From a virus: a stretch of 21,948 nt of DNA. Under the pieces are notes generated by a model. The model saw only the letters and a list, made by a program, of their open reading frames with translations, did not search any database and had not been told where the DNA came from. Numbering within the stretch: position 1 is the stretch's first letter; every line of letters starts with the position of its first letter. The translations under genes and the position numbers were made by a program. This document shows positions 580 through 18,275 of the stretch, one piece after another. The stretch is from the IMG/VR virus record IMGVR_UViG_3300027816_000446, positions 1 through 21,948 of that record. One strand, written 5' to 3'.

Positions 580-2844
580 ATGAGTGTAAGTATAATTAAA
601 AATCCTGCTAACTTCCAACCATCAAAATCAGATGCGTTGTATTTCACAGTTTCAGCAAGCACAGCAAATGAACCAAAGTTTAGATATGTCTATGAAATCT
701 ATGTAGAAGGTTATAAGGTATTTGAAGGTAAGTCTACCCCAAACCCTTATGGTCTTGGTATCATTGATGTATCAAGGGTATTAGATTCATACTTACAAAA
801 CTACCCTGTTGCTTATCACGATGAGACAGCAATATTCTTACATCAAACATCACCTTTTTCAAGAGCTTATGGTAATGAAGTTGTTGATTATTATATCCTT
901 GTTGGTGAGGAGTATGCAGATTCGTTTGTTGGAGCACTTACAGGATTTACAGGTATTGGAAACCAAGTAGGTTTTCCATCTGTTCCTTCATCTACTTACA
1001 AGGCATTTCTTGGAACGATGGGGGTTAATAGAAACGCAACACTAGCTGAGTGGGATACAGGTCAATTCACTTTATCAGGTAATCCACAACCAGCATTCCC
1101 ATATACCACAACAAATTTATTTTTAACAAACTCACCAAGGATTAGAGACATCAGTGTGGAGGAGTATTATACCCTATCATTTACCAATGCTCAACTTGGA
1201 GGTAGTTTTGTTTCAGAGCCTTATTATGTTGAATATAAATTCTATGATGTAAATGGATTTATAATTGATACAAAGAAGTATTCAAATATTGTTTCCAATG
1301 GTGGTGGTCCAATGACTTCATGTACCCAAGACTATCAAAACTATACCTTTACAGGTCTATCAGATTATAACATTTTAAATGTGGGGGCTGGTCCATTAAA
1401 CATCTACCAATTCCCTGGTCATACATCTTATTATACCGTTCAGTTGTTTGGTGGGGCTAGCACGACACCAGTGACGCCGACGCCCACCCCTAGCCAGACT
1501 CCAACCCTTAATTTAACACCAACCCCGAGTGTTACAACAACTCAGACGATGACTCCGACCCCAAGTAGCACTCCTCCTACTTGTTCTTGTGATAACTATA
1601 CAATTGAATCTACGGTTGGATTTACTCAACAAATATTCTACACAGATTGTAATGGTCTTTTCTTATCTTTTTATCTTGGACCTTATGATTTGATTTCAGA
1701 TTGTTTCTGTTATGTTGAACCAAGTCCTTATGTTATTATAACCAATTTGGGAGCTTGTGGGTCTCCACCAGTTACTCCAAGTATCACCCCATCACAAACA
1801 CCATCAGGTGCGGCAGGTGAGGTTTGCGTTTCAGGAACAACCATCAATGTAACAAACACAGGGTATATCAAATACACTGACTGCTCAGGTAATACTCAAT
1901 ATCAATTTATCAGTAGTCTTGGAATTTATACGATTACACCATGCCATTATTGTTCAACAATAAGTCCTGGTTTCCCTTATGCTGATGTTGCTAATTTCAA
2001 CAACAAAGTATGTGGATTTACATGTGCTACTCCTTCATTGACGCCGACGCCCACCCCTAGTGTGAGTTCATTAGCAAAACAAAATGTATTTGTTAGAGAT
2101 TGTTGTACAGGTCAACTTGAATATCAAGTTCAGGTTGCAGCTTCACTTGGTATTGGTAATACCGTTCTAATTGATGGGGAGTGTTATCAAATATATGCTC
2201 TTGGTGGAACAGGGTCTGTTGGAGATTATTCAACAGCTACCAACTACATCAATTGTAATGAGTGTGTGGCTGACTATCCTTGTCCTGTTGACCCACAAAA
2301 ACCAACACAACTCAAACCATCAGTTCAACCAGTAACGATTATACCAAGTGGTGGAACAGCTCCTTGTGTAAGTTATTCTGCTGTATCTGAAATGTTCCAA
2401 TTCAATGTGGTCCCTCCTTGTAATCAATTCTTCAACGAACAGATAATGTTTAAGAATAGATACGGAGCTTATGACTATTTCATGTTTGAAAAAGCAAAAG
2501 CTGAGGGTCTTGCAATCAATAGGGAAGTATATGGACAATGGAACATCAATTGGGGTTCACAAAATCCAATTAAGACAAATTATTCAAGAGGGACAACAGA
2601 CTTCAATACAGACATCACAGAAACCCATGTTGTGAACTCAGGTTTCATTTCACAACCAATGTTTGTGTGGTTGGAAGAATTGTATACAACAAATGACGCT
2701 TACCTTATCCAAACCGATGGAACACTATTCCCAATAAACATTGTTAACACGGAGTTTGTTAGAAAGACAAAAGGTAATAAGACTATGTTCAATATTGAAT
2801 TAACTTATACATTCTCCAATAACATCAAACTATTGAATAACTAA
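580..2844 (+). CDS. Large tail-associated protein with T/P-linked Cys modules inserted in its middle
   Basis: 754 aa. The N-terminal core (about residues 1-290, with YGLGIIDVSRVLDSYL) and C-terminal core (about 605-754, with NRYGAYDYFMFEK) look like ordinary soluble virion domains. Between them lie T/P-rich linkers at about 294-334, 393-411 and 484-498. They separate three Cys-containing modules: about 335-392 (YTDCNG), 412-483 (YTDCSGN) and 500-570 (VRDCCTG). YTDC-type modules of this kind recur in Bacteroidetes phage surface proteins. I infer a tail protein whose middle is exposed as a display or adhesion arm. It sits between a tail-completion candidate and a baseplate candidate, and its stop overlaps the next ATG by one base (TAATG). 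The exact function is not recognised. Confidence 0.6.
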   Translation: MSVSIIKNPANFQPSKSDALYFTVSASTANEPKFRYVYEIYVEGYKVFEGKSTPNPYGLGIIDVSRVLDSYLQNYPVAYHDETAIFLHQTSPFSRAYGNEVVDYYILVGEEYADSFVGALTGFTGIGNQVGFPSVPSSTYKAFLGTMGVNRNATLAEWDTGQFTLSGNPQPAFPYTTTNLFLTNSPRIRDISVEEYYTLSFTNAQLGGSFVSEPYYVEYKFYDVNGFIIDTKKYSNIVSNGGGPMTSCTQDYQNYTFTGLSDYNILNVGAGPLNIYQFPGHTSYYTVQLFGGASTTPVTPTPTPSQTPTLNLTPTPSVTTTQTMTPTPSSTPPTCSCDNYTIESTVGFTQQIFYTDCNGLFLSFYLGPYDLISDCFCYVEPSPYVIITNLGACGSPPVTPSITPSQTPSGAAGEVCVSGTTINVTNTGYIKYTDCSGNTQYQFISSLGIYTITPCHYCSTISPGFPYADVANFNNKVCGFTCATPSLTPTPTPSVSSLAKQNVFVRDCCTGQLEYQVQVAASLGIGNTVLIDGECYQIYALGGTGSVGDYSTATNYINCNECVADYPCPVDPQKPTQLKPSVQPVTIIPSGGTAPCVSYSAVSEMFQFNVVPPCNQFFNEQIMFKNRYGAYDYFMFEKAKAEGLAINREVYGQWNINWGSQNPIKTNYSRGTTDFNTDITETHVVNSGFISQPMFVWLEELYTTNDAYLIQTDGTLFPINIVNTEFVRKTKGNKTMFNIELTYTFSNNIKLLNN
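1459..1581 (+). repeat. T/P-rich linker coding tract (linker 1 of gene 580-2844)
   Basis: This tract encodes about 41 residues, almost all Thr, Pro, Ser, Gln and Val. It uses ACG, CCG, CCC and AGC codons much more than the flanking A/T-ending codons. A 22-nt stretch at 1472-1493 is repeated exactly at 2039-2060 inside linker 3 of the same gene. It acts as a flexible or extended spacer between the N-terminal core and the first Cys module. Confidence 0.8.
2029..2070 (+). repeat. T/P-rich linker coding tract (linker 3) with exact 22-nt repeat
   Basis: A short tract encoding TPSLTPTPTPSV. Bases 2039-2060 are identical to 1472-1493. It separates the second and third Cys modules. The exact identity in a gene whose other linkers are codon-scrambled suggests a recent copy or recombination event between linkers. 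Confidence 0.7.
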
Positions 2845-5411
2845 TGGATACAACCTTACTTGTACTTGGGGACAACAACCAATGGACTGAGCTTGACTTA
2901 TTTGAAGACCTACCAATAAATGTAATAATTCAGGAGACTGATATTACAGATATTGAATCAAGACGCTCACCCTATTCCAAGACATTTCAAATTCCTGGTA
3001 CAAAGAATAACAATGATTTCTTTGAACATTTCTATGAGGTTAATGCAATTGGTTATGACCCTTTAACAAGAAGACCTTGTGTTGTTCAATACAGGGGAAC
3101 AGATATCTTCAAGGGTTTCCTTAGACTTAACTCTGTTGAAAGAACAAAAGACCTTATTCAATATGAGGTATATATCCTATCAGAAATAACAGATTTCAGT
3201 TCATTGGTTCAAGATAAAAACCTTAAAGAGTTATCTTGGTTGGAATATAACCATATTCAAAACTATGATACTGTAACTCAATCTTGGTCAGCAGATAGTG
3301 GTGATGTTAATGGTCTATTTGGTGGTAGTGTTATCTATCCTATGATACATTATGGGTATGACTATCAACCAGCAAGTGCGACAACCCCCACCTTTAAGTT
3401 TGCGGTAAATGACCCAAAGGGAATCTACCTATCAGGTAATTCAATGCCACCAACTTATTTCAAACCAGCAATGAGGGTTAAGACCATCATTGAAAAAATC
3501 TTTGCTTCAAGTGGTTATGAAATTGAATCAAACTTTTTTGAGTCAGAATATTTTAGAGGTATCTACATTGACCTTGCAGCAAATGGTAAGCTTGGGGTAG
3601 AGACAGCATCAGCCAGAACAAACCAAAACATTTTTAGAGTATATGGAAATCCCTTACCATTAGCACAGGAGTTTTCTTATGCTAATGGTACAATCCAACA
3701 AATTAAGATGGGTAGAATATCATCAACAGATGGTTATGACCCCTCGTTTAATTTTAACGAAACATATTCTGCATATCAGATACCCTACTCAGGTCAGTAT
3801 TCCTTTGAATTTAAGGGAAAGGTGAACCAAAGATACTCTAATAACTATGTGTCCACATATTATGGTATTTCAATATACAAAGCTTCAAGACCCCAAGACT
3901 TAACCGACCCTAATAAAAGGGTTGCCGTTACGGGAACAACAGATGGTCTTGTTGCATTTAACTATCTAAATGCTAATAACCAAAGAATATTCTTGAACAA
4001 CTGCCAGTTAAACGCTGGTGATTGGGTGGGGTTATTCATTAGATTTAACACAAGTAGTTCATCAAATAGAAATGCGGGGTTATGGGTTGGTCCAACTGAT
4101 TGGATTGGAACGGGAGCAAGATGGGAGTTATATAATTCACCAACATTTGTTGCAAATAACATTGTGGATATGAAGCTTCAATTCCCTGAAATAAGTTGTT
4201 TGGACTTTGTTAAAGCAATTGTTAAGATGTTTAACATGGTAGTGGTTCAGACCAATGAAACCAAGAAGATTAGAATGGAGCCACTCAATTGGTATTTTGC
4301 TCAAAACTTTGCCAAGACGGTTGATTGGTCCCAATGGTTTGATGAAAACTCACCATATAGAATTGAACCTGTTAACTTCCAATTACAAAAAGAATATAAC
4401 TTCAAGTATCTATCAGCAGAAGATGAACACCTTGGAAAGTTATATGAAGATGAATATGAATTACCTTTTGGAACAAAGAGGTTTGTGGCAACAAGTGATA
4501 TCCTAACAGGAACGGTTGACTTTGAGTTTCCATTTAGACCCTTCCCTTCTGATGTGATGACTGGTTCAACCAATCTTATCATTCCAATGGTTTATAAGTA
4601 CGATGTTGCAACGGGTAAAGAAATACCTTACTCAAATAAAAACCATATATTCTTTTGGTGTGGAAATAGATACTTCTATTCTGATGAGCAGAAGACACAA
4701 AAACTAACTTGGTGGATAACATCGGGAGGAACACCAGTTCAATGGAATACCTATCCATGTGTGAACCATCTATCATCATTAGACAAACAAGATGCTGAGT
4801 TGGTATCAGACTTAAACTTTGATAAGACAACAGATTTCTATGATGAAGAAAATTCTGTTGTTCAACAATATACAGCAAACAATGTGTATCAGTTATGGTA
4901 TGGGGATTACTTCAATAATCTATATTCACCTGAAACAAGAAGGGTAAGTGGTAGATTTCTTTTTGAACCAATCTTTATATCACAGATTAACTTAACAGAT
5001 AAGGTGTGGTTAAAGGATTCCCTTTTCCAAATTGAAAAGATAAATGAAGCTGACCTTGTGAATTGGAAACTAACAGATGTATCTTTAATCAAACTTGTAA
5101 CACCTTATAATAAGTTTACCCCACCAGCACCTGATTATTCTGTATCACCCAACGAAGCTTATCCTCCATCGGGAGCAACATTTGCAATCACAGGATTTGT
5201 TTCAACACAACAATCAGATGTTTGTAATAACACAGCACCAATAACCAATGTGTGGGCTTCACAAAACCCCGTAGTTGAAGGAACATACTTATACTACAAC
5301 TCATTAGCCACAAGTGCATTTACCACTGGTACCTTCTTTAAACAGACCACTGGTTCAACGACTTATGTTGCGATAAACAACTTGGGACTAGCAACGGAAA
5401 ACCAATGCTAA
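2844..5411 (+). CDS. Putative baseplate/tail-tip structural protein
   Basis: 855 aa. The N-terminus reads DLPINVIIQETDITDIESR followed by SPYSKTFQIPGTKNN. This pattern (a strand, DI-x-x-IE-x-R, then S-K-T-x-x-IPGT-x-NN) is familiar from large tail proteins of Bacteroidetes phages, and their exact role is not established. The central region is Tyr/Phe/Asn-rich, probably beta, and has no membrane segment. The last 65 residues (WASQNPVVEGTYLYYNSL ... NQC) look like a small Cys-ended display module attached to the core. The gene overlaps its upstream neighbour by one base and lies before the tape measure, which fits a tail-tip or baseplate component. A distal tail or fibre-attachment protein is equally possible. 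Confidence 0.55.
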   Translation: MDTTLLVLGDNNQWTELDLFEDLPINVIIQETDITDIESRRSPYSKTFQIPGTKNNNDFFEHFYEVNAIGYDPLTRRPCVVQYRGTDIFKGFLRLNSVERTKDLIQYEVYILSEITDFSSLVQDKNLKELSWLEYNHIQNYDTVTQSWSADSGDVNGLFGGSVIYPMIHYGYDYQPASATTPTFKFAVNDPKGIYLSGNSMPPTYFKPAMRVKTIIEKIFASSGYEIESNFFESEYFRGIYIDLAANGKLGVETASARTNQNIFRVYGNPLPLAQEFSYANGTIQQIKMGRISSTDGYDPSFNFNETYSAYQIPYSGQYSFEFKGKVNQRYSNNYVSTYYGISIYKASRPQDLTDPNKRVAVTGTTDGLVAFNYLNANNQRIFLNNCQLNAGDWVGLFIRFNTSSSSNRNAGLWVGPTDWIGTGARWELYNSPTFVANNIVDMKLQFPEISCLDFVKAIVKMFNMVVVQTNETKKIRMEPLNWYFAQNFAKTVDWSQWFDENSPYRIEPVNFQLQKEYNFKYLSAEDEHLGKLYEDEYELPFGTKRFVATSDILTGTVDFEFPFRPFPSDVMTGSTNLIIPMVYKYDVATGKEIPYSNKNHIFFWCGNRYFYSDEQKTQKLTWWITSGGTPVQWNTYPCVNHLSSLDKQDAELVSDLNFDKTTDFYDEENSVVQQYTANNVYQLWYGDYFNNLYSPETRRVSGRFLFEPIFISQINLTDKVWLKDSLFQIEKINEADLVNWKLTDVSLIKLVTPYNKFTPPAPDYSVSPNEAYPPSGATFAITGFVSTQQSDVCNNTAPITNVWASQNPVVEGTYLYYNSLATSAFTTGTFFKQTTGSTTYVAINNLGLATENQC

Positions 5412-5438: not shown

Positions 5439-8400
5439 ATGGCTAAAAATATTGCATTAACGCTCACCATCGGTGGTGTTAAACAAAACATCACAAACAT
5501 CAAGGAGCTTGAAACTGCCATCAAGGGTGCAGAAGAACAACTCAAAGGTTTAACCATTGGGTCAGAAGGTTTTAAGAAGTTATCCTCAGATGTTAAAAAT
5601 GCAAAAGGTGTTCTTGAAGATTTCAATGAATCGGTAAAGGGACAGGAGTTGGAAAAAAGAGTTGGAGCCTTTGCCAAAGTTGGGGAAGGTATCACAGCAT
5701 CTTTTGCGGGTGCCCAAGCAGCCATAAGTTTATTTGGAACGGAGAGTGAAGCGGTCGCAGAAGCAGCAGCCAAAGCCCAATCATTATTAACCATCGCACT
5801 TGCTGCCAGGTCGGCAGCCGAAGGTGTTGTTGCCGTTAGAACGGTTGCAGCCAACATCGCAACATACGCCTCGGCTGCGGCAGCAAACGCTGCGACAACA
5901 GCCACAAGGGTATTATGGGCAACCCTCGCAGCTAACCCACTTGGAGCAATCCTTGCTGTGGTTGGTTTGTTGGTAGCGGCATATGTTACCCTAACAGGTT
6001 CAACAAAGGAACAAGTTAATGTTCAGAACGAACTAAACAAGGCAACCTCAGATGAAGCTCGGGGTCTTCAAAACTCACTTGTTATTTTAACAGAGTTCAA
6101 CGGACAAAGAGATTTACAAAACAAGGAAATACAAAAACTTGTTAAACAATATCCTGGTTTTAATGCCTTCATTGATAAAGAAAACAAACTTAACCAACAA
6201 GGTGTAAAGTTTATTCAATTGAAAATCAAACAATACGAACTTGAAGCTCAGGCTAAATTGATTACTCAAAAGATTGCGGAAAACTCAATCAAAATCTTGG
6301 AGATTGAATCCCAAAGTATCTTTGATAATGTTTCATTTTGGGAGAGTGCTTGGAATACTATAAAGTCAGGGGGACAAATAACTTCATCAGTATTGGCTGA
6401 TGCACAAACTGGTCTTGCAAACCAAAGAAAAAAAATTCAAGAAGTAACAGCAGAAAACGAGAGATGGAGAAAATCCCTAAGTGATGTATATGTTCAAACA
6501 GATGATGTATTAAAACAACTTAAACCATTTGAAGAACAACTTAACACTCAGGTTAAACTTGAAAAGGACCTTAACACTCAAAAGGAAAATTCAAAGAAAA
6601 ACCAAGAGGAATTAGCCGCAGCTTACAAAAAGGGATTGACTTCAACGATTGATTTGGCAGGTGCTGTTAAGGAGCTTGACGACTCACTTAAAAAATATAA
6701 TCAAACAATTGAAAGGGTTTCAAAGATTGAATATGACGCACCAGTTGTAGAACAATTGAAAAATATTCAGGAAAACACAAAAAGAGCCGCTGAGGTTTTG
6801 GTTGATGATGTAACAAAAATCAATAATGCGTTCAATGGTATAGGTGTTGGTCCAAATGGTTTACCAAAAGATGAGTTATTAAAAGTATTCAAAGACATTA
6901 GAAGTGAACTTGAAAATTCATTTATTGCATTATTTAATAATGGTAAGGGACTTGACTTCACTGGTATAAGAAAGAAATTTATTGAAGGTGGAAAACAACT
7001 TACACAAGACCAAAAAAATATCTTATCTGACCTTGTAAGTTCATACGAAGATGTATTTAGGTTCCTTAACGACAATCAACTCTATGGGTTGGGTGTACAA
7101 CTACAAAACATTTCAGTTGCATGGAATGATTTCAGAGGTGAAATTAACGAAACTGAAAGTGGTGGTAAAGCATTACTCAATATCCTTGGGGAAATTTCTG
7201 CTGCAAATAGAAAATTTGTTAATGAGTTTACAGGTAAAGACCTTGAAATTGCCCCTATTCAATTTGACCCAACGAAGGTTCAAAAAAATGCAACTGAGTT
7301 TATTAAACTACTTGAAACAAATATCTATCCAACGATAGCTACAAGACTGATTGCTGCTCAGGTAGACATTGAAAGAAAGGTTGTTGCAACGACAACTGGT
7401 ACGGTTAAAGCAGAAGCAGAAGGTAGATTAAAAGCTCTTGCAGACCAATTTGAAGCATTTATCAAGACAGGTAAAATTGTTGGTAATAACACAAAGATTA
7501 CAGCAGAAGCTGTTGATGCTAATGTTCAAAAGATAATCGGAACATTCTTGGGAATGGCAGACGCAATTACAGTTGCTGAACAAAAAATTATTCTCACTAA
7601 CATTGAGGTTAATAAGTTAACCAAAAATCTTCAAGATAATCCTGCTCTTTTATCCAAAGCAATTGGTGGTCTTGTAACTGAAAACATTGATGCATTAAGT
7701 AGACTTATCTTGGGTGCAAGAACAGAAGAGGAAAAACTTGAAGAGCAATTTACCAAGAAGTATAAAGAGAATGAGCAAGAAAGAATTGACTTTAAAAAAC
7801 TTCTTGAAAAACAAGGTCTTGATTTATCAAAAGCTACTTACGATGACCTTCTAAAAGCTTATATTGCTTATAAGAAGAAGGAAGTTGCTGCTGATAAAGA
7901 TGCTGAAAAAGAAAAACAAAAAGGTAGACAAGAGACCTATAACAATATATTAAAGGGTATTGAATTATTTTCACAAACCCTTAATCAGATATCCGCTTTA
8001 ACTCAGGAAAGAATTAGAACAGATTTGAAATCACTTGAAATTGCAGAAAAGAAAACACTTGAAAAAGTGGTAGGTGAAAGTGAGTCAGCAGCGGCTAAAA
8101 GAATTGAAATTCAAGAGGAGTATGCTGCAAAGAGAAAAGAATTGGAAAAGAAAGGTGCTGTTCAAGCCCTTCAATTTTCACTTGTTCAAACAATAGCAAA
8201 CGGAGCCCAAGCATTTGTTAAAGCCTTGGCTGAACTTGGACCTGTTCTTGGTCCAATCATGGCAGGGGTAAATGCGGCTCTGACTTTGGCACAAGTAGTT
8301 ATTATTCAAGACCAAATATCCAACGCTCAGGCAATGAGAAAGGGTGGTATATTGAAAGCTCAGGGTGGTATGATACTAAGGGGACCATCACACGAGAATG

Positions 8401-8675: not shown

Positions 8676-10940
8676 ATGGCACTGAAAGTTATTGAACTAT
8701 TGGTAGACGATGCTTTAACAGGGGATACTCGTGTTGAAGAAATTGCACTTGTATTACAACCAGCAATTGAAACAGAATTTATGTGGTTTGGAAGACAATC
8801 ATTTGAAACATATAACGACTACCCACAAGCCGCTCGTGAAAATGCGTGTAAGGTATTAAGATGGAGAGACGAGCATGGTGATGAAGTTCAAGGAATGACC
8901 CAAGTGGGTTGGACAAGAGCTAATCAACTATGCTCAGGTGAAAACATTTCAGAGGAAACAATTGCCAGAATGTCCGCATTTGAAAGACATAGAAGGAATA
9001 GTCAGATAGCCCCCGAGTTTCAAGGAACACCTTGGAAAGATGCTGGTTATGTTGCTTGGTTAGGTTGGGGAGGAACAGAAGGTGTAGAATGGGCTCAGAA
9101 GAAATTGCAGACCATTAGAGAGGAGATGGAAATAAATACAAGTAATCTTAAACCTTGGTCAAAGACCTCAGGGGATACGGAAATGTGTGGTTGTAGTGGA
9201 GGATACTATGATATGCAAGAAGGTCCATGTTGGGAAGGGTACGAAATGATAGGCTGGAAGAGAAATGCTGAGGGAGTTAAGGTGCCAAATTGTGTTCCAA
9301 AAGAAGAGTTATCACAATATCCGATTGGACAAATCAGCAGTGATTCCTTAATCACAGGAAATAATTGTGGTTGTGGTTGTCCTGATAATGGTTGTTGGGA
9401 CGATGGTGGAACATACTTTGCAATAACAATCAATGGGGTACCAGTATTTGATAATCCTGCCCAAGCTGCCACATACGCACAGGTTATTGGTTGCAATGGT
9501 TCACATGTTCATATGGTAGATGGTGTTGAAATGTATATGCCTTGTGAAATTCATTCTGACGCTATTGACCAAGACGACGAACTTGGTGAGTATACAGAAC
9601 AAGAATATGAGATTGCCAAACTCCTTCAATTCTTATCAAGAACAGACAAACAAAAGTTTGAAGCTGTGATTGAATCAATGAGGGGTGCAACACTACAAGA
9701 AATAAAAGATAGAGACCATAAAACCCCGACAACATACTTCAAGTATGAAAGGGTATTGACTGGTTCCCCTGATAGAGAGTTTTGTGATTCAATTGAAGAC
9801 AGATATTTTAGAAGATTGGAGATTGACCTTCTTCGTGATACCAATCGTGATTTCGGTCATAACAGAGAGCCATATTCAAAGTGGTTATACAAGGGTGGAC
9901 CTAACTGCGTTCACGCTTGGAGAAAGTTTTTGGTTCAAGGAAAAGATGTTGTTGACCAAGGGTTTGCTGCTGGTAAAGCAGGAATGCCACCAAAGTCAAT
10001 GCCGAATAACGGATATTATTCTGAGGAAACCAAAAAAGCAAGTGAAAAAGCTTATGCAATTTCACAATCACAAAAGATGACCAGAGCTTCATCACAAGTT
10101 ATTATAGTTGATATGGACGATACCTTGGTAAGAGGTAATTCCCCAATCAAGAAGACCATAGATTATATTAACGAAAAAGCTAAGACATATAGAATCGTTG
10201 TTGTTTCAGGAAGACAGAAGTCAAGAACGGAAGAAACAAAAAGACACCTCAACGAACTTGGGGTATTATGGGACGACATTTATTTGTCTGATTTCCCACA
10301 AGGTCCAAACGCATCAAATGCATTTAAAGAATATAAGGCAAAGTGGTTGATGGAAAAAGGTTATCAGATTGTGGAAGCAATTGATAACGATGCTGAGGCA
10401 AGAAGAGCATACCAAAGAGCTGGTGTTAAATCAATATCACCTGTATCTTTATCTATGGGGTATAACAAACAAGCTCAGTTTTCAATTGACGAAGAACAAA
10501 GAATGTTATATTCACCAGCAATGAAACCAGGGATTTTAATTCCAAGGATAGATGAAATAACAAGAGAAAAATATTTTGTTACATTCAAACCTGAAACAAT
10601 CAAGGTTATGAGTCAAAGATTTCTTATTGAAAAAAGAACGGACAAAACAAACTATGAACATTCCAACCAAAAGTTTGATGGGGTGTATCTTGTTGAATCT
10701 TGGATTGTAGATGGTGAGCAGGATAAAGCTTATAACATGGGGTATTCAAAACAAGATGTTCCTGTTGGGACCTGGATGGTTGGATATCGTGTGGATAATG
10801 ACGAAGTGTGGGAAATGATTAAACAAGGCAAAGTAAAAGGGTTATCAATAGAAGGAAACTTTGAGTACAAATTTTCGGTAGAAAATACTGATAGATATTT
10901 ACTTAAAGAAATCATAAACATTCTAAATCAAATAAACTAA
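8676..10940 (+). CDS. Multidomain prohead protease (XkdF-like) with embedded HAD phosphatase domain
   Basis: 754 aa with at least four parts. Residues about 50-155 form a phage domain of unknown role with the pattern A-x-KVLRWRDEHG ... RANQL ... RMSAF-x-RH ... AWLGWGG. Residues about 170-295 are Cys/His-rich (CGCSGG, CGCGCPDNGC, MPCEIHSD). Residues about 475-590 form a HAD-type phosphatase: DMDDT at D479-T483 (motif I), VVVSGR with S511 (motif II) and DNDAEAR at D570-D572 (motif IV). Residues about 605-745 match the XkdF-like putative serine protease, with candidate catalytic H662, E674 and S724 (GLSIEG). XkdF-type enzymes are thought to mature the prohead. The gene precedes the scaffold and capsid genes, as expected for a protease. 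The HAD substrate is unknown. The triad assignment is inferred by analogy with HK97-type prohead proteases. Confidence 0.8.
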   Translation: MALKVIELLVDDALTGDTRVEEIALVLQPAIETEFMWFGRQSFETYNDYPQAARENACKVLRWRDEHGDEVQGMTQVGWTRANQLCSGENISEETIARMSAFERHRRNSQIAPEFQGTPWKDAGYVAWLGWGGTEGVEWAQKKLQTIREEMEINTSNLKPWSKTSGDTEMCGCSGGYYDMQEGPCWEGYEMIGWKRNAEGVKVPNCVPKEELSQYPIGQISSDSLITGNNCGCGCPDNGCWDDGGTYFAITINGVPVFDNPAQAATYAQVIGCNGSHVHMVDGVEMYMPCEIHSDAIDQDDELGEYTEQEYEIAKLLQFLSRTDKQKFEAVIESMRGATLQEIKDRDHKTPTTYFKYERVLTGSPDREFCDSIEDRYFRRLEIDLLRDTNRDFGHNREPYSKWLYKGGPNCVHAWRKFLVQGKDVVDQGFAAGKAGMPPKSMPNNGYYSEETKKASEKAYAISQSQKMTRASSQVIIVDMDDTLVRGNSPIKKTIDYINEKAKTYRIVVVSGRQKSRTEETKRHLNELGVLWDDIYLSDFPQGPNASNAFKEYKAKWLMEKGYQIVEAIDNDAEARRAYQRAGVKSISPVSLSMGYNKQAQFSIDEEQRMLYSPAMKPGILIPRIDEITREKYFVTFKPETIKVMSQRFLIEKRTDKTNYEHSNQKFDGVYLVESWIVDGEQDKAYNMGYSKQDVPVGTWMVGYRVDNDEVWEMIKQGKVKGLSIEGNFEYKFSVENTDRYLLKEIINILNQIN

Positions 10941-11879: not shown

Positions 11880-12833
11880 ATGAAAAAGAATGAAAAATTT
11901 TCATACAACCTCTCCAATTTGAGTGTGTGGGTGGACGAAAACGCTACCGACATGTTAATCAAAAGTATTCTTGGAGAGACGTTACCAAAGTACGCTACAA
12001 TACGTCCGAATATTAAGGGGACAGAACAGGTAGGGTTCTTAACGAACAATGTTATCTTCCAAGATGGTACTTGTGGATTTAACGCAACTGGTGATACCAC
12101 AATTTCACAAGTAACAATTGCTACTTGTAACAAGAAGGTTAACCAATCACTTTGTGCGTACGATTTGTACGACTACTTTTTGAGTCAGAGACTTTCTAAC
12201 TCAAACTTTCAAGAGACAGTACCTTTTGAGGAGTTAATCATCACAGATATTTCTAACAGAATTGCTGATTCTATTGAAAAGCAATTGTGGAGAAATACAA
12301 CTGCGACTGGTGGTACTGAGTACAACTCACAGTGTTTTGACGGAGTTTTAGCTCTTGTTACTTCTGGTAATGGTGCTACTCAGGTTGCTTACACAGCAGC
12401 TACTTCAAGCAATGGTCTTGATGTATTTTCAACTTACTACGAAAACATTCCTGCGAATGTATTACATTTGAATGACTTAATCGCATTCTGCTCTTACTCT
12501 GATTATAGAGGTCTTGTAGCTTCAATGAGAAAATCATCTTATGTAAACTTATTCAGCTTTGATGATGCTTCTGCAGCACAAGGTCAAGAGTGGTCAGTAA
12601 TGTTACCAGGAACGAATGTTAGAGTTATTCCAACACAAGGTCTTGACGGACAAAATGCTGTTGTTGTAGGTCCAGCTTCTTACTTCATGGTAGGTATGAA
12701 CGCAACAGACAATGGCGGTATTGAAATCAAAGGTATGTATGACCCTTACGAAGATATCGTAAAAATCATCGCTCGTATGGTATATGGTCTTGGAGTATTC
12801 TCTGTGGATTCATTCGTACTTGCTAAAAACTAA
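11880..12833 (+). CDS. Major capsid protein (probable HK97 fold)
   Basis: 317 aa. The N-terminal helical region (SVWVDENATDMLIKSIL) is followed by TLPKYATIRPNIKGTEQVGF. The rest is mixed alpha/beta and includes EELIITDISNRIADSIEKQLW and a C-terminal GIEIKGMYDPYEDIVKIIAR ... GVF segment typical of HK97-like capsid cores. Length and position, directly after protease and scaffold, match a major capsid protein. Unlike HK97 itself there is no long N-terminal delta domain, consistent with the separate scaffold gene. The leader at 11855-11879 is extremely A-rich with no Shine-Dalgarno, as usual for highly expressed Bacteroidota genes. Confidence 0.8.
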   Translation: MKKNEKFSYNLSNLSVWVDENATDMLIKSILGETLPKYATIRPNIKGTEQVGFLTNNVIFQDGTCGFNATGDTTISQVTIATCNKKVNQSLCAYDLYDYFLSQRLSNSNFQETVPFEELIITDISNRIADSIEKQLWRNTTATGGTEYNSQCFDGVLALVTSGNGATQVAYTAATSSNGLDVFSTYYENIPANVLHLNDLIAFCSYSDYRGLVASMRKSSYVNLFSFDDASAAQGQEWSVMLPGTNVRVIPTQGLDGQNAVVVGPASYFMVGMNATDNGGIEIKGMYDPYEDIVKIIARMVYGLGVFSVDSFVLAKN

Positions 12834-12860
12834 TAAACCAAATTTTAAAATATATAAACT

Positions 12861-13644
12861 ATGTCGTGTTATATAGACCAAGGATACACACTGGATTAGC
12901 GTTTAACAGTCCAGTCTAAATTGGGTGAATTGCTGGAAACTCCGAGAGGACAATCAGCAGCCAAGTTTCCGAAGTGTAGAAAGTAGGAAAAAGGTTCAGA
13001 GACTAGAAGGTGAGTAACACAAACAATAAACCTTCCACGAGTGCCCAACAACAGAAATGTTGATGATATAGTCCGAACACCACGAATAAATGAAGGTGGT
13101 GAAGTTGAAGATAAAGAGCTTCAACGATAACAAAAAGTGTAGAAATGCATCTATTGGTGGTATCAAAGAAATGTGGATTTTGGGTGATAGTGGTCATACG
13201 ATTTCTGGCTTCACAACATCTGGTAGTGATGAAATTACTGGATTCAGTGGCTCAGGGACTTGGTATCACTTTGAACTTGTTAAACAATCTTCTTCATTCA
13301 CTGAGGATATTTTGGTTAACGATGTTGCTCAATCTGTTACATTCCAACCAGCAGTGGTAATATCCTTACCGAAACTTAACCAAACGCTTAGAAATTTATT
13401 CTTTGATTTGGTAAAACAAAATGAACTTTACATTATTATCAAAGATAATAATGAGCGTTATTGGGCTGTTGCTTGGAGTAACGGCGCGATGGTGACCACT
13501 GCTAGTCAGCAGACGGGTCAGGCGTATAATGATTTAAATGGAATATCAGTTACAATGACGGGAGGGGAGCCAAATCCCGCTCGTGAGATTGATGTTACAA
13601 CAACATTAGCAGCAATCGCAACAGGATTTACAGTTCAATCCTAA
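12861..13644 (+). CDS. Putative major tail/virion structural protein, split by a group I intron (exons 12861-12896 and 13138-13644)
   Basis: Exon 1 encodes MSCYIDQGYTLD. Exon 2 continues in frame with CRNASIGGIKEMWIL, giving a 180-aa protein. Reading straight through fails because TAG lies directly at 12897-12899. The start is preceded by the A/T-rich leader ATATAAACT, which resembles the one before the gene at 18287. The C-terminal part (AYNDLNGISVTMTGGEPNPA) resembles the ending of phage tail-tube-like proteins, and the position just after the capsid gene fits a major tail or head-associated protein. A naive gene caller would instead start at the in-intron ATG 13090, giving a wrong N-terminus (MKVVKLKIKSF...). 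The splice boundaries are inferred from intron structure and reading frame. The function is tentative. Confidence 0.75.
12897..13137 (+). ncRNA. Group I self-splicing intron (IA-like), 241 nt, no ORF
   Basis: The canonical core elements are visible in order. P1: exon end ACTGGAT (12890-12896) pairs fully with the guide GTCCAGT (12909-12915), with the expected U·G at the 5' splice site. P3: TTGGG 12921-12925 with CCCAA 13044-13048. P4: TGCTG 12931-12935 with CAGCA 12955-12959. P5: TCC-GAGA-GGA 12941-12950. P6a: TTTCC 12966-12970 with GGAAA 12986-12990. P7: GACTA 13001-13005 (R element GTTCAGAGACTA) with TAGTC 13069-13073 (S element GATATAGTCC). P7.1: GAAGG/CCTTC 13006-13035. P8: CAACA-GAAA-TGTTG 13049-13062. 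P9.1: GTTGAAG/CTTCAAC 13104-13125. P10: ACA 12906-12908 with TGT 13138-13140. The terminal G is 13137. The P7.1 hairpin between P7 and P3 suggests subgroup IA. No homing endonuclease is encoded. Confidence 0.93.
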
Positions 13645-13698: not shown

Positions 13699-15576
13699 AT
13701 GAAATTACAATGGGGTGGCAGAAATTATAGACCTGTCGGAAATTATATTAGAGTTTACAAACCAACAATACAAGAATTGATGAAATCCCAAGCTCAAAGA
13801 ACGCGCTTGGGTTCAGCGATTTTAACAGGTGAAATGATTTCAGGTATCGGTGATGCTTATGGTCCTGATGTTGTTGTTACGCCAACGCAAACAGCAACAA
13901 GTCAACCGACTCCTACTCCAAGCATTACTCCAACCTTGACTGAAACTCCCACGAATACTCCTACCACAACTTTAACCCCATCTGTAACTCCATCATCTAC
14001 ACCTTATCCAATTGTTCAACCATCATTGTGGTTTGATGCAAGTGATTCAACGACAATGAATTTAATTCTGTCGGGTGGAACAACATATATTTCACAACTT
14101 ACCTCTAAGGGTACTGAGAATTGGACTTTAACAGGTCAAACATCTGATAGGTATCCAACATATTCTGCTTCAACATCGTTCCCTGGTTCACCAAATATTA
14201 TCAGATTTACACCAAACGCTTCAACAGCTTTAAGAAAAGGATTGGTTGCTTTTGATAGAACACCATTATTACATTCAGGGTCAACCATATTTGTTGTTTG
14301 GTCAAATCCAGCAGGCACACCAGCCTTTACGAATCAGTTATATTCAGGTAATACGAACGGAACACTTGCTCAAAGTGGGTCTGATATTTTTGATAGATTA
14401 CAATTTGCTGGTTTTATTGGTGGAACAAATTTAAATAATACAAATATTTATCCACAAGCATCATCACAAGTTGCGGGTGTTCCTACACCTTATACTTCAA
14501 CGACACTTAATGGTAAGTTTTTGATGAAAGCAGTTTTACCTGCTAATCCTGGCTTTGGTAGTTGGGAATTAAACCAATCAGCAGGAACAAGTACAACACT
14601 ATTTACAGGCACAACTGTAAGTCCAAGATGGAATGCTTTTAATCTTGGTTGTACTACCAACAATACCCAACAATTATTCGGTACAAATAACAATATTGAA
14701 TTAGCTGAAATGATGGTATTCAATTATGAATTATCATCATCAGAACAAGAAGCTGTTGAACTATATTTAAGAGACAAATGGAGATACGATGAATGGGCTT
14801 CACCTGTTCCGACTCCTACGCAGACAAGTTCACCAACTCCGAGCATAACACCACAAGTTACGAGCACTCCAACGCCGAGTAGCACACCACCAGCATTTTC
14901 ACCGTCAGGAATAACAGACCTTGAATATTGGTTTATGGGTGCTAGTGGTTCATCAGTTTCATCTTGGACAAACTATGGTTTGTTAGGTGGTTCAATTACT
15001 CAAGGTACAGGTGCAAGACAACCCGATATTATAACAGGAGCAACTCTTGGTTCATATACTGGAACCGCTGTTCAGTTTTTAACAAGGGACAACATGAATG
15101 GAACATTTACCACAAAAGATTTTTCTGCTAGTACAATATTCTTTGTTGGTAGAATGGCTAATAATGCTAGCCAAAGTGGAATTTATGCGGTGGCATCACT
15201 TCCTGTTACTTCAACTTCATTTGAATATCAAAATTATAGTTCAGAGTATAGAATAGCTCTTAATCCTGACTTGTTCACAATACCAGGTGCTAGCGCAAAT
15301 ACACTCAATGGTATTCCTCAGATAATGTGTGCTTCAGGCAATACCTCAGATTTTGAGGTTCAAGTGTTGACTGGAGCGGGGGTAATCGCACCTATTTCAA
15401 ATGCATTTTTCAATTCAACAATTGTTTCCTCTATACAATTCGGTTTGGACACTCCTGGTTCTGGTATTAACATACAAATACACGAATATATCATGTATGA
15501 TAGAAAGTTGAGTTCAACTGAATTTAACAATGTAGTCAATTATCTTAAAACAAAATATCAATTTAACACATGGTAG
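13699..15576 (+). CDS. Two-domain LamG/concanavalin-like adhesion protein with T/P linkers
   Basis: 625 aa. The short N-terminal anchor (about residues 1-58, MKLQWGGRNYRPVGNYIR) is probably what attaches to the virion. It is followed by T/P linker A (about 61-103), lectin-like domain 1 (about 108-365, starting WFDASDS and ending LAEMMVFNYELSSSEQEAV-ELYLRDKW), T/P linker B (about 368-400) and lectin-like domain 2 (about 403-625, starting LEYWFMGASG and ending YDRKLSSTEFNNVVNYLKTK). The closing pattern of aromatic-x-x-x-LS-x-x-E-x-x-x-V-x-x-YL-x-x-K is typical of LamG/concanavalin A-like jelly rolls, which often bind glycans. I infer a host-surface or mucus-binding fibre protein. It overlaps the next gene by 7 bases. 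No enzymatic motif is seen. Confidence 0.75.
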   Translation: MKLQWGGRNYRPVGNYIRVYKPTIQELMKSQAQRTRLGSAILTGEMISGIGDAYGPDVVVTPTQTATSQPTPTPSITPTLTETPTNTPTTTLTPSVTPSSTPYPIVQPSLWFDASDSTTMNLILSGGTTYISQLTSKGTENWTLTGQTSDRYPTYSASTSFPGSPNIIRFTPNASTALRKGLVAFDRTPLLHSGSTIFVVWSNPAGTPAFTNQLYSGNTNGTLAQSGSDIFDRLQFAGFIGGTNLNNTNIYPQASSQVAGVPTPYTSTTLNGKFLMKAVLPANPGFGSWELNQSAGTSTTLFTGTTVSPRWNAFNLGCTTNNTQQLFGTNNNIELAEMMVFNYELSSSEQEAVELYLRDKWRYDEWASPVPTPTQTSSPTPSITPQVTSTPTPSSTPPAFSPSGITDLEYWFMGASGSSVSSWTNYGLLGGSITQGTGARQPDIITGATLGSYTGTAVQFLTRDNMNGTFTTKDFSASTIFFVGRMANNASQSGIYAVASLPVTSTSFEYQNYSSEYRIALNPDLFTIPGASANTLNGIPQIMCASGNTSDFEVQVLTGAGVIAPISNAFFNSTIVSSIQFGLDTPGSGINIQIHEYIMYDRKLSSTEFNNVVNYLKTKYQFNTW

Positions 15577-15860: not shown

Positions 15861-17468
15861 ATGTCTACACAAAGAAGAACATTTTTAAAGACTTGGTGGT
15901 CACCATATCTTGGGGAGTGGAGACCATTCCACGATAACTATATCTATGCCTCAAATACAGGGTGTACATTTTCAGGTAGTGCGGTTTATTCACCTGTGCC
16001 TCCGACCCCTTCAATGACCGCAAGCCCGACTTTAACACAAACTCCGTCAAATACTCCTACTTTAACCCCGACCGCAACTCCACAAGTAACTCCATCTGTT
16101 ACTCAGACAATGACGCCTACCACGACTGAAACTCTTACGGCGACCCCAACGGTTACTCCGACCACTACAACTACTTTAACTGCAACTGAGACTAGCACGC
16201 CTACCGCAACTCCACAAGTCACAACTACTGCAACAAACACGAGCACTCCAACCAACACTCCTACCGTAACAAATTCACCAACGACAACTACGACTTTAAC
16301 CGCTACTCCTTCACAAACGCCTTCAATTACACCGAGTGTGACGCCAACACAAACACCTGGATTCACACCAACTACTACCTTGACGCCGAGTCCGACTACC
16401 ACAACTACTTTAACTGCAACACAGACACAAACTCCGTCAATAACTCCTAGCCCGACCGCTACTCAACCAGCATTTAATCCTAGCTCAATAGGAAATCTTC
16501 AATACTGGTTTAAGTCAACAGATGGAGCTTCTGTTTCTTCTTGGACTAATAATGGTTTAATTGGTGGTTCATTGACTCAGCCGACAGCAGCAAACCAACC
16601 ACAAATTGTTTCTAACGATACTTTTGGATTTGGTTATACAGGTCAATCAGTTAATTTCACAAGTCGTGACTGGATGTATCTAAATCACCCATCATCTGCT
16701 ACAACATTTACAGGTAAGACATTCTTCTTTGTGGCTAATGTTAAAGATAGGTCAACAGCAGGTTGGGCTATTGGAATACAAGAAGCATCTGGTTATACAA
16801 GTTCAAACTCAATTTTTGACTATCAATTCTATGATGGTTCATTAACCACTGTTTCAAGAAGTAGACCTGGTAGAAGACAATTTACATTTACAACGGGGTC
16901 AACTTTATTTGCAGCGTCAGGTTTAACTACAACAGGATATACCGCCGCTGTAAACGATGTTGTTGGCACGAGTGCTTCTACGGTATACGCTGGAACAAAT
17001 GCGGTATACATTGGATTTGGTTATGATTCAGGTTCAGCGAATGTGAATGATATTTCTGTGTTTGAATTTTTGGGTTATAATAAGTTATTAACACAATCCG
17101 AATTTGACCAAGTATTGAATTATTTGAAAACAAAATATGCTTATTCCTTAATCAACCCTACGCCCACGCCCACCGTGACTCCAACTAAAACACCAAGTGT
17201 TACTAACTCGCCTACCCCTACTTTGGGAACAGGTTATTTCTTCTATAATGTAGAAGCTTACGATAAAAGTTCATGTGCTCTTGTTACCACAGGAACACTT
17301 AAATTGAAATCAAATGTTTATTATGCTCTTGGTAATTTCGTTTGTAGTAGTTCATCAACTTACAAATATAAACTAATCAGTAATGCGTCAGGACCTACCG
17401 CAACATGGACATTGGAGACTTGGATAGGTGGTTCAAACTGTGCTGGACTAAGTTGTACAATCCCTTAA
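15861..17468 (+). CDS. T/P-stalk adhesion protein with one LamG-like domain and a Cys-containing C-terminal module
   Basis: 535 aa. The N-terminal anchor is about 1-45 (TFLKTWWSPYLGEWRPFHDN). A very long T/P-rich stalk spans about 46-203. The LamG-like domain at about 205-428 starts LQYWFKSTDGASVSSWTNNG and ends NKLLTQSEFDQVLNYLKTK. A short T/P linker (about 432-455) leads to a small C-terminal module (GYFFYNVEAYDKSSC ... NCAGLSC). The LamG domain is clearly paralogous to domain 2 of the protein at 13699-15576. The stalk should project the binding domain away from the virion. I infer an adhesin or receptor-binding fibre component. The glycan or receptor is unknown. Confidence 0.75.
   Translation: MSTQRRTFLKTWWSPYLGEWRPFHDNYIYASNTGCTFSGSAVYSPVPPTPSMTASPTLTQTPSNTPTLTPTATPQVTPSVTQTMTPTTTETLTATPTVTPTTTTTLTATETSTPTATPQVTTTATNTSTPTNTPTVTNSPTTTTTLTATPSQTPSITPSVTPTQTPGFTPTTTLTPSPTTTTTLTATQTQTPSITPSPTATQPAFNPSSIGNLQYWFKSTDGASVSSWTNNGLIGGSLTQPTAANQPQIVSNDTFGFGYTGQSVNFTSRDWMYLNHPSSATTFTGKTFFFVANVKDRSTAGWAIGIQEASGYTSSNSIFDYQFYDGSLTTVSRSRPGRRQFTFTTGSTLFAASGLTTTGYTAAVNDVVGTSASTVYAGTNAVYIGFGYDSGSANVNDISVFEFLGYNKLLTQSEFDQVLNYLKTKYAYSLINPTPTPTVTPTKTPSVTNSPTPTLGTGYFFYNVEAYDKSSCALVTTGTLKLKSNVYYALGNFVCSSSSTYKYKLISNASGPTATWTLETWIGGSNCAGLSCTIP
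15996..16470 (+). repeat. Long T/P-rich stalk coding tract
   Basis: About 158 codons, almost all Thr and Pro with Ser, Val, Gln, Ala and Leu. It reads as loose repeats of TPT, TPS, TPQVT and TTTLTAT. All four Thr codons and all Pro codons are mixed, including many ACG and CCG, while flanking sequence prefers A/T-ending codons. Only short exact repeats remain, for example a 20-nt block at 16167-16186 that recurs at 16401-16420. Confidence 0.85.
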
Positions 17469-17471
17469 TAT

Positions 17472-18275
17472 ATGGCAATACCAGTTCTAATAACATTAAC
17501 TAATATGGGTTCAGCTGTTGGACCATTTAATCTTTATTCAGATGTGGATAACTATGTTATTCCATTTGAACAAGATGTTCCTGCTTCTGCATTTACATAT
17601 GGTTATTATACTGCACTTGTTCCTGATGGGACATTGAACATTAAAGTTCAATCAGAGGGGGAATGTCTTAACTACATTATTACCATTGTTCAAAACTTAC
17701 CCACTCCTTCTGTAACTCCACAAAACACTCCCACAGCGACAGTAACTCCGAGCCCGACGACCACATTAACTCAAACTCCGCAAGTCACTGCGAGCATGAC
17801 TCCAACTCCAAGCGTAACAATTGGATTGACTCCCACAGAGACCCCACAAGTAACAAGCACACCCACCACTAGCCCAACACAAACCATAACGCAAACTCCG
17901 TCAAGCACCCCTCCACAAGCGACTCCTACACAGACTGGCACACCACAAGTTACTCCAAGTCAGACTAGTACAAATCCTGGTGGTCAGTTGTATGTTTATG
18001 CAAGATATATAAACACTTCACAGGAGTTTGGTTATAGTCTTAATGGTGGTTCATACTTAGGAATTGGAACACCAGCATCAATGAGTTGTGATTATATTGC
18101 AACCATTTCAGGTCTTCAAGTTGGGGATACAATCGTATTTTCAACCTTGTTAGCATGTAGCATAAACGGGGACACAGCAGATTGTCCAAATTCAACGACA
18201 GGTTGTTCTTATACTCATAATTTTGTTGGAACAACTTATGTTTATATTACTGTTGACGCAAGTGTATGTTGTTAA
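17472..18275 (+). CDS. T/P-linked virion surface protein with C-terminal Cys module
   Basis: 267 aa. The N-terminal domain is about 1-75 (MAIPVLITLTNMGSAVGPFN ... CLNYIITIVQNLP). A T/P-rich linker spans about 76-166. A C-terminal module (about 168-267) starts YVYARYINTSQEFGYSLNGG, contains six or more Cys (CSINGDTADC, TTGCSYTH) and ends DASVCC. The architecture matches its upstream neighbour: core, T/P spacer, then small Cys-containing display module. It begins three bases after the previous stop. I infer another surface-exposed tail or fibre decoration. No catalytic motif is visible. Confidence 0.7.
   Translation: MAIPVLITLTNMGSAVGPFNLYSDVDNYVIPFEQDVPASAFTYGYYTALVPDGTLNIKVQSEGECLNYIITIVQNLPTPSVTPQNTPTATVTPSPTTTLTQTPQVTASMTPTPSVTIGLTPTETPQVTSTPTTSPTQTITQTPSSTPPQATPTQTGTPQVTPSQTSTNPGGQLYVYARYINTSQEFGYSLNGGSYLGIGTPASMSCDYIATISGLQVGDTIVFSTLLACSINGDTADCPNSTTGCSYTHNFVGTTYVYITVDASVCC
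17698..17969 (+). repeat. T/P-rich linker coding tract (gene 17472-18275)
   Basis: About 90 codons of Thr, Pro, Ser and Gln with the recurring units TPQVT, TPSVT and QTPS. The codon mix resembles the other linkers in the window (ACT, ACG, CCG, AGC). It joins the N-terminal core to the Cys-rich C-terminal module. Confidence 0.8.

Follow-up and report, generated by a model that had tools for sequence, protein, structure and literature searches.

An ORF-less group I intron in a late-module phage gene, its natural intronless alleles and its same-site relative in a distant phage

The viral contig studied here (IMG/VR record IMGVR_UViG_3300027816_000446; its positions 1–21,948, i.e., the whole 21,948-nt stretch analyzed, are hereinafter the window) raises the question of whether a late gene interrupted after its twelfth codon is restored at the RNA level by a group I intron and, if so, how an intron of this kind might move between phages. 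On the first point, we are close to certain that a group I intron, complete and ORF-less, occupies 12897–13137 of the forward strand and separates codon 12 from codon 13 of a late-module gene. The initial annotation had proposed a group I intron with these exact ends and an exon-joined protein; three lines of evidence, namely a covariance-model match, natural intronless alleles and covariation, concur with it.

Intron boundaries and the exon-joined gene

The Rfam group I model (RF00028, Intron_gpI) matches 12860–13094 over its full length (model positions 1–253) with 63.8 bits (E = 2.5e-14) against a curated cut-off of 50 bits, and no other match in an Rfam search of the window reaches a cut-off. 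Deletion of the 241 nt joins exon 1 (12861–12896; codons 1–12, MSCYIDQGYTLD) to exon 2 (13138–13644; codons 13–180 and the stop codon) in a single frame of 180 codons, as had been predicted, and intronless relatives (e.g., L002–L016) match the product end to end at 96–98% identity, L002 and L004 being among the closest. In all, the protein is uninterrupted in 23 related viral contigs (L002–L016 and L021–L028; about 72–98% identical), which start like exon 1 and have its GAT (or GAC) joined straight to TGT/TGC; the intronless allele across the insertion site reads CTTTAGATTGTAGA. This GAT|TGT junction fixes the intron site with a one-base ambiguity between 12897–13137 and 12898–13138, and we chose the former because it places a U-G at the end of P1 and a G at the end of the intron; only these two rules exclude the shift. 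The intron opens with TAG, a stop in the frame of exon 1, and no ORF of at least 60 aa lies wholly within the 241 nt, in keeping with the earlier description of the element as ORF-less.

The 180-aa protein belongs to phrog_19091, a family annotated as of unknown function. Its gene is situated between a 317-aa putative major capsid gene (11880–12833, forward strand, intronless in the window), which shows a weak match to Nonlabens phages P12024S/L, and other late genes of a module that includes a tape-measure protein and a portal. A role in the virion or its assembly is plausible; the initial annotation went further in calling it an abundant structural gene, a description derived from position that the membership in phrog_19091 does not confirm. 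The 180-aa protein matches no family in a Pfam search. Profile searches against PDB sequences gave nothing convincing; in Foldseek, no PDB entry matched at E below 0.08, and the viral models matched were those of uncharacterized phage proteins. Structure prediction gave mean pLDDT values of 46.6 for this protein and 27.1 for the putative capsid protein, from which no fold is named.

Among named phages, the Nonlabens phages P12024S/L, which infect a marine flavobacterium, have the best matches to the portal and putative capsid proteins. These affinities lend slight support to the earlier label of a Bacteroidetes-type phage. A bacterial genome collection contains no gene related to the 180-aa gene and, therefore, no host is assignable from a prophage. 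Elsewhere in the window, 8676–10940 codes for a 754-aa protein combining an acid-phosphatase/HAD-like domain (residues ~475–570) with an XkdF-type protease domain (605–728), and Thr/Pro-rich stretches of the type TPTPSVTPSQTP are common to four late proteins (580–2844, 13699–15576, 15861–17468 and 17472–18275).

Ribozyme architecture and predicted splicing

The elements recognized in the initial annotation (P1, P3, P4, P5, P7, P8, R, S, P7.1, P10 and the terminal G) were each recovered at their positions, and we add P6, P6a, P9 and P9.1; all are on the forward strand. P1 is formed by the exon segment ACTGGAT (12890–12896), with U at the splice site, and the internal guide GTCCAGT (12909–12915), seen in both sequence and fold, as a 7-bp helix ending in U-G. 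From the sequence, ACA (12906–12908) and TGT of exon 2 (13138–13140) constitute a P10 of only 3 bp. The core then unfolds through the 5′ strand of P3 (12921–12926, with its partner at 13043–13048), P4 (12931–12936/12954–12959), which is invariant in the alignment described below, P5 (12941–12943/12948–12950), with two of three pairs covarying, P6 (12960–12961/12994–12995) and P6a (12966–12970/12986–12990), with five of five pairs covarying. The R element GTTCAGAGACTA (12994–13005) includes the 5′ strand of P7 (12999–13005), in which 12999 pairs with 13074 and 13001–13005 pair with 13069–13073. It is followed by the P7.1 hairpin (13006–13011/13030–13035; five of six pairs changed on both sides), P8 (13049–13053/13058–13062; four of five) and the S element GATATAGTCC with the 3′ strand of P7 (13065–13074), which is nearly invariant in 15 related introns. 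P9 (13078–13083/13096–13101) and P9.1 (13104–13110/13119–13125) come from the minimum-energy fold, and the intron ends in a terminal guanosine (omega-G) at 13137. Assignment to type IA agrees with the P7.1, which is present and covarying, the subgroup being marked by P7.1 and P7.2 between the 5′ strand of P7 and the 3′ strand of P3, and P7.2 being not delimited here.

The segment 12885–13147 folds with −63.9 kcal/mol (z = −3.70; none of 200 shuffles was as stable), and its minimum-energy structure includes P1, P3, P4, P5, P7.1, P8, P9 and P9.1. For covariation, 15 related introns from viral contigs were aligned from P3 to S and scored on the structure of the window. Paired cells amount to 94.0%, versus 76.9% for shuffled alignments and 24–43% for slid versions of the structure, its derivation from the window introducing a bias relative to the slid versions and none relative to the shuffles. 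Both sides have changed in 22 of the 39 pairs, and the covariation score is 0.496 versus 0.157, with none of 500 shuffles scoring as high, a contrast that kinship among the aligned introns can inflate. P3, P6a, P7.1 and P8 all covary, with five of the six P3 pairs changed on both sides and 95.6% of its cells paired; in P7, the outermost pair (12999–13074) is G-C, A-U or U-A across the introns and the other five pairs are constant.

Group I introns are excised by the attack of a guanosine at the 5′ site followed by that of exon 1 at the 3′ site. We infer from these sequence features that 12897–13137 is removed in cis by this path: in the folded transcript, the internal guide would pair with the last bases of exon 1, guanosine would attack after the U of GAU (U12896) and the freed exon 1 would attack after G13137, with the joined exons encoding the 180-aa protein. 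The in-frame TAG at the intron start would halt ribosomes ahead of the ribozyme core, which might protect its folding, and unspliced RNA would yield only 12 residues.

It is highly improbable that the intron has instead decayed into a splicing-incompetent remnant of a split gene, with exon 2 being translated from the internal ATG at 13090 through 13137 as an N-terminally altered protein. While the mechanical ORF 13090–13644 is open in frame with exon 2, the core elements, P1, P10 and the terminal G are all intact and covarying, and an identical copy of the intron is found in two further contigs. Moreover, the frame from ATG 13090 is not conserved, since in a related intron from a distant phage (L204) a stop codon interrupts it at the corresponding position. 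Such a product would also lose C3, Y9, L11 and D12 of exon 1, which are invariant in the aligned homologues; D12 and C13, the residues flanking the intron site, are both invariant in ten of these, down to 33% identity. With splicing as the preferred reading, the gene call is corrected: naive annotation gives either a 184-aa protein with 16 false residues (from ATG 13090) or a gene that has lost its true start.

Alleles, lateral spread and mobility

The identical intron is present in L018 and L020 (full records L042 and L043), from strains nearly identical to the window, and L052, a 99.95% match to the window, ends within it. A scan of 50 further records, mostly distant homologues (34–37% identity), found no intron. 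As a separate observation, two contigs nearly identical to the window (L017 and L019) have base 1 of exon 2 as their own first base. This looks like a fork of the assembly graph at the 3′ splice site and would suggest mixed intron-plus and intron-minus populations. As no allele was found that lacks the intron but has both exons as in the window, we do not count these starts as evidence. We also considered a co-conversion tract in the window itself, where four synonymous changes lie in the exon by the site (11 of 15 positions identical versus about 90% around), and set it aside as weakly supported and equally explicable by selection on P1.

A pattern scan recovered an ORF-less intron at exactly the same codon in L204, a 32-kb contig of a distant phage, and the same intron type at a contig end, L237. 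The introns of the window and L204 are 82.4% identical, a figure that partly reflects the slow evolution of the catalytic core, as against 60.9% for the spliced coding sequences, 59.8% for the proteins and 55% for the upstream putative capsid proteins. The L204 intron likewise ends in G and opens with an in-frame stop, TGA in its case, and its P1 covaries: exon and guide are CTGGAT/GTCCAG in the window and TTGGAT/GTCCAA in L204, both exons encoding Leu-Asp with synonymous Leu codons. The exon ends of all three intron-bearing alleles (window, L204 and L237) conform to NTGGAT, versus about 10% of the intronless rows, among which some contigs are represented more than once; P1 position −4 is mismatched in most intronless alleles, and G occurs there in only about one-tenth of such rows.

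Lateral transfer of the intron at a fixed site is thus well supported by sequence comparison, since the identity of the introns far exceeds that of the host genes at one site and nearer relatives lack the element, with up to 93% identity in the case of the L204 gene. An immobile, vertically inherited intron whose patchy presence reflects loss appears unlikely: the want of an endonuclease in the intron or among the genes found nearby favors it, as does the fact that the window, L042 and L043 are near-identical strains, but it has to contend with an intron at 82% in a host gene at 61%, with the intronless nearer relatives of both carriers, and with the co-conversion tract of a sister intron.

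This sister, another ORF-less group I intron of 257–258 nt, interrupts the upstream putative major capsid gene in five of the related contigs (L002, L005, L007, L012 and L022; loci L034–L038). Its P1 is again of 7 bp ending in U-G (GTTCCGT/GCGGAAC), and the 257-nt copies are identical in four contigs despite differing surrounding genes. L022 and the intronless L023 are 98–100% identical over most of the compared region, whereas the ~100–150 bp upstream of the intron in L022 are 60–85% identical to L023 (in 20-base bins near the intron). In this tract L022 follows instead the L005/L007 type, which bears the intron, with identity climbing to 100% beside the intron. Set within an L023-like backbone, it is a co-conversion tract, the signature of homing by DNA break repair. 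Such carriage of flanking exon DNA makes it quite improbable that the spread went through RNA, with reverse splicing at a site matching P1 and subsequent reverse transcription, even though an intron without an endonuclease and the P1 target NTGGAT common to the carriers would suit that route. Accordingly, we favor DNA homing, in which the window intron would have spread through break repair at an intronless site, the endonuclease having acted in trans or having been lost since.

Searches of the window and of the intron-bearing contigs, which are fragments, gave no match to the HNH_3 (PF13392), GIY-YIG (PF01541) or NUMOD4 (PF07463) families; HNH_3 matches occur in two intronless relatives. The homing step is therefore without its enzyme, no endonuclease of these families being present near the intron. 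The earlier suggestion of mobilization by an endonuclease encoded elsewhere is compatible with the lateral movement, though no such enzyme was identified nearby, and mobilization in trans remains plausible. We tentatively raise the possibility that the two ORF-less introns in neighboring virion-module genes are kept mobile in trans, through an endonuclease gene that lies in another part of these genomes or is brought in by co-infecting phages; if true, virion genes would be exchanged by intron homing without an intron-borne enzyme. There is precedent in the "collaborative homing" of the S-PM2 psbA intron with the free-standing F-CphI (PMC6083498) and in the trans homing of T4-type phages (review PMC3984707). 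S-PM2 psbA matches the core of the window intron at 71%; however, the endonuclease gene there is adjacent and tested, whereas none was found in the window. In an intronless relative, the L023 record (G022), a free-standing HNH_3 ORF (112 aa; 10305–10433, minus strand) lies just past the portal and adaptor genes.

Group I introns in known phage virion genes

The premise that phage introns reside mainly in DNA-metabolism genes is dated by published capsid and tail cases; group I introns in such genes are already established, and the window intron joins them. Mycobacteriophages have them in a tail gene (BAKA/Optimus) and a capsid gene (LittleE), with splicing proven by RT-PCR (PMC3706429). The BAKA/Optimus case is similar in being a small endonuclease-less intron in a virion gene, with U before the 5′ site, a 3′ G and intronless relatives, while the LittleE intron differs in carrying a putative endonuclease; all are from actinobacterial phages with experimentally shown splicing, unlike the window intron, which is known from its sequence. 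For crAss-like phages of Bacteroidetes (Delta and Zeta), up to three group I introns in one capsid gene are reported (PMC10136315). The window resembles them in that a group I intron interrupts a plausible virion gene of a phage with possible Bacteroidetes affinities, but they are gut Crassvirales, as opposed to an unclassified phage with the intron in a phrog_19091 gene. The intron of Flavobacterium phage Fpv1 (KU599877) shares 79.7% identity with that of the window across 137 nt of core sequence, but is followed by a homing-endonuclease ORF and has another gene neighborhood. The present locus is valuable for bringing together naturally occurring alleles with and without the intron in one phage group and a sister intron with co-conversion, a combination that makes the spread of endonuclease-less introns among phages directly testable.

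Two other contigs show introns in head genes. In L173 (IMGVR_UViG_3300035670_006316; minus strand, 911–3711), a major head protein gene (phrog_1005) has four Rfam group I matches and an apparent fifth intron, the P5 loop region of which would hold a homing-endonuclease ORF, exceeding the three reported for the crAss-like capsid gene (PMC10136315). L189, from an unrelated phage, has an ORF-less group I intron (89.1 bits; minus strand, 6018–6257) in a major capsid gene (Pfam Phage_capsid_2, E = 1.9e-70).
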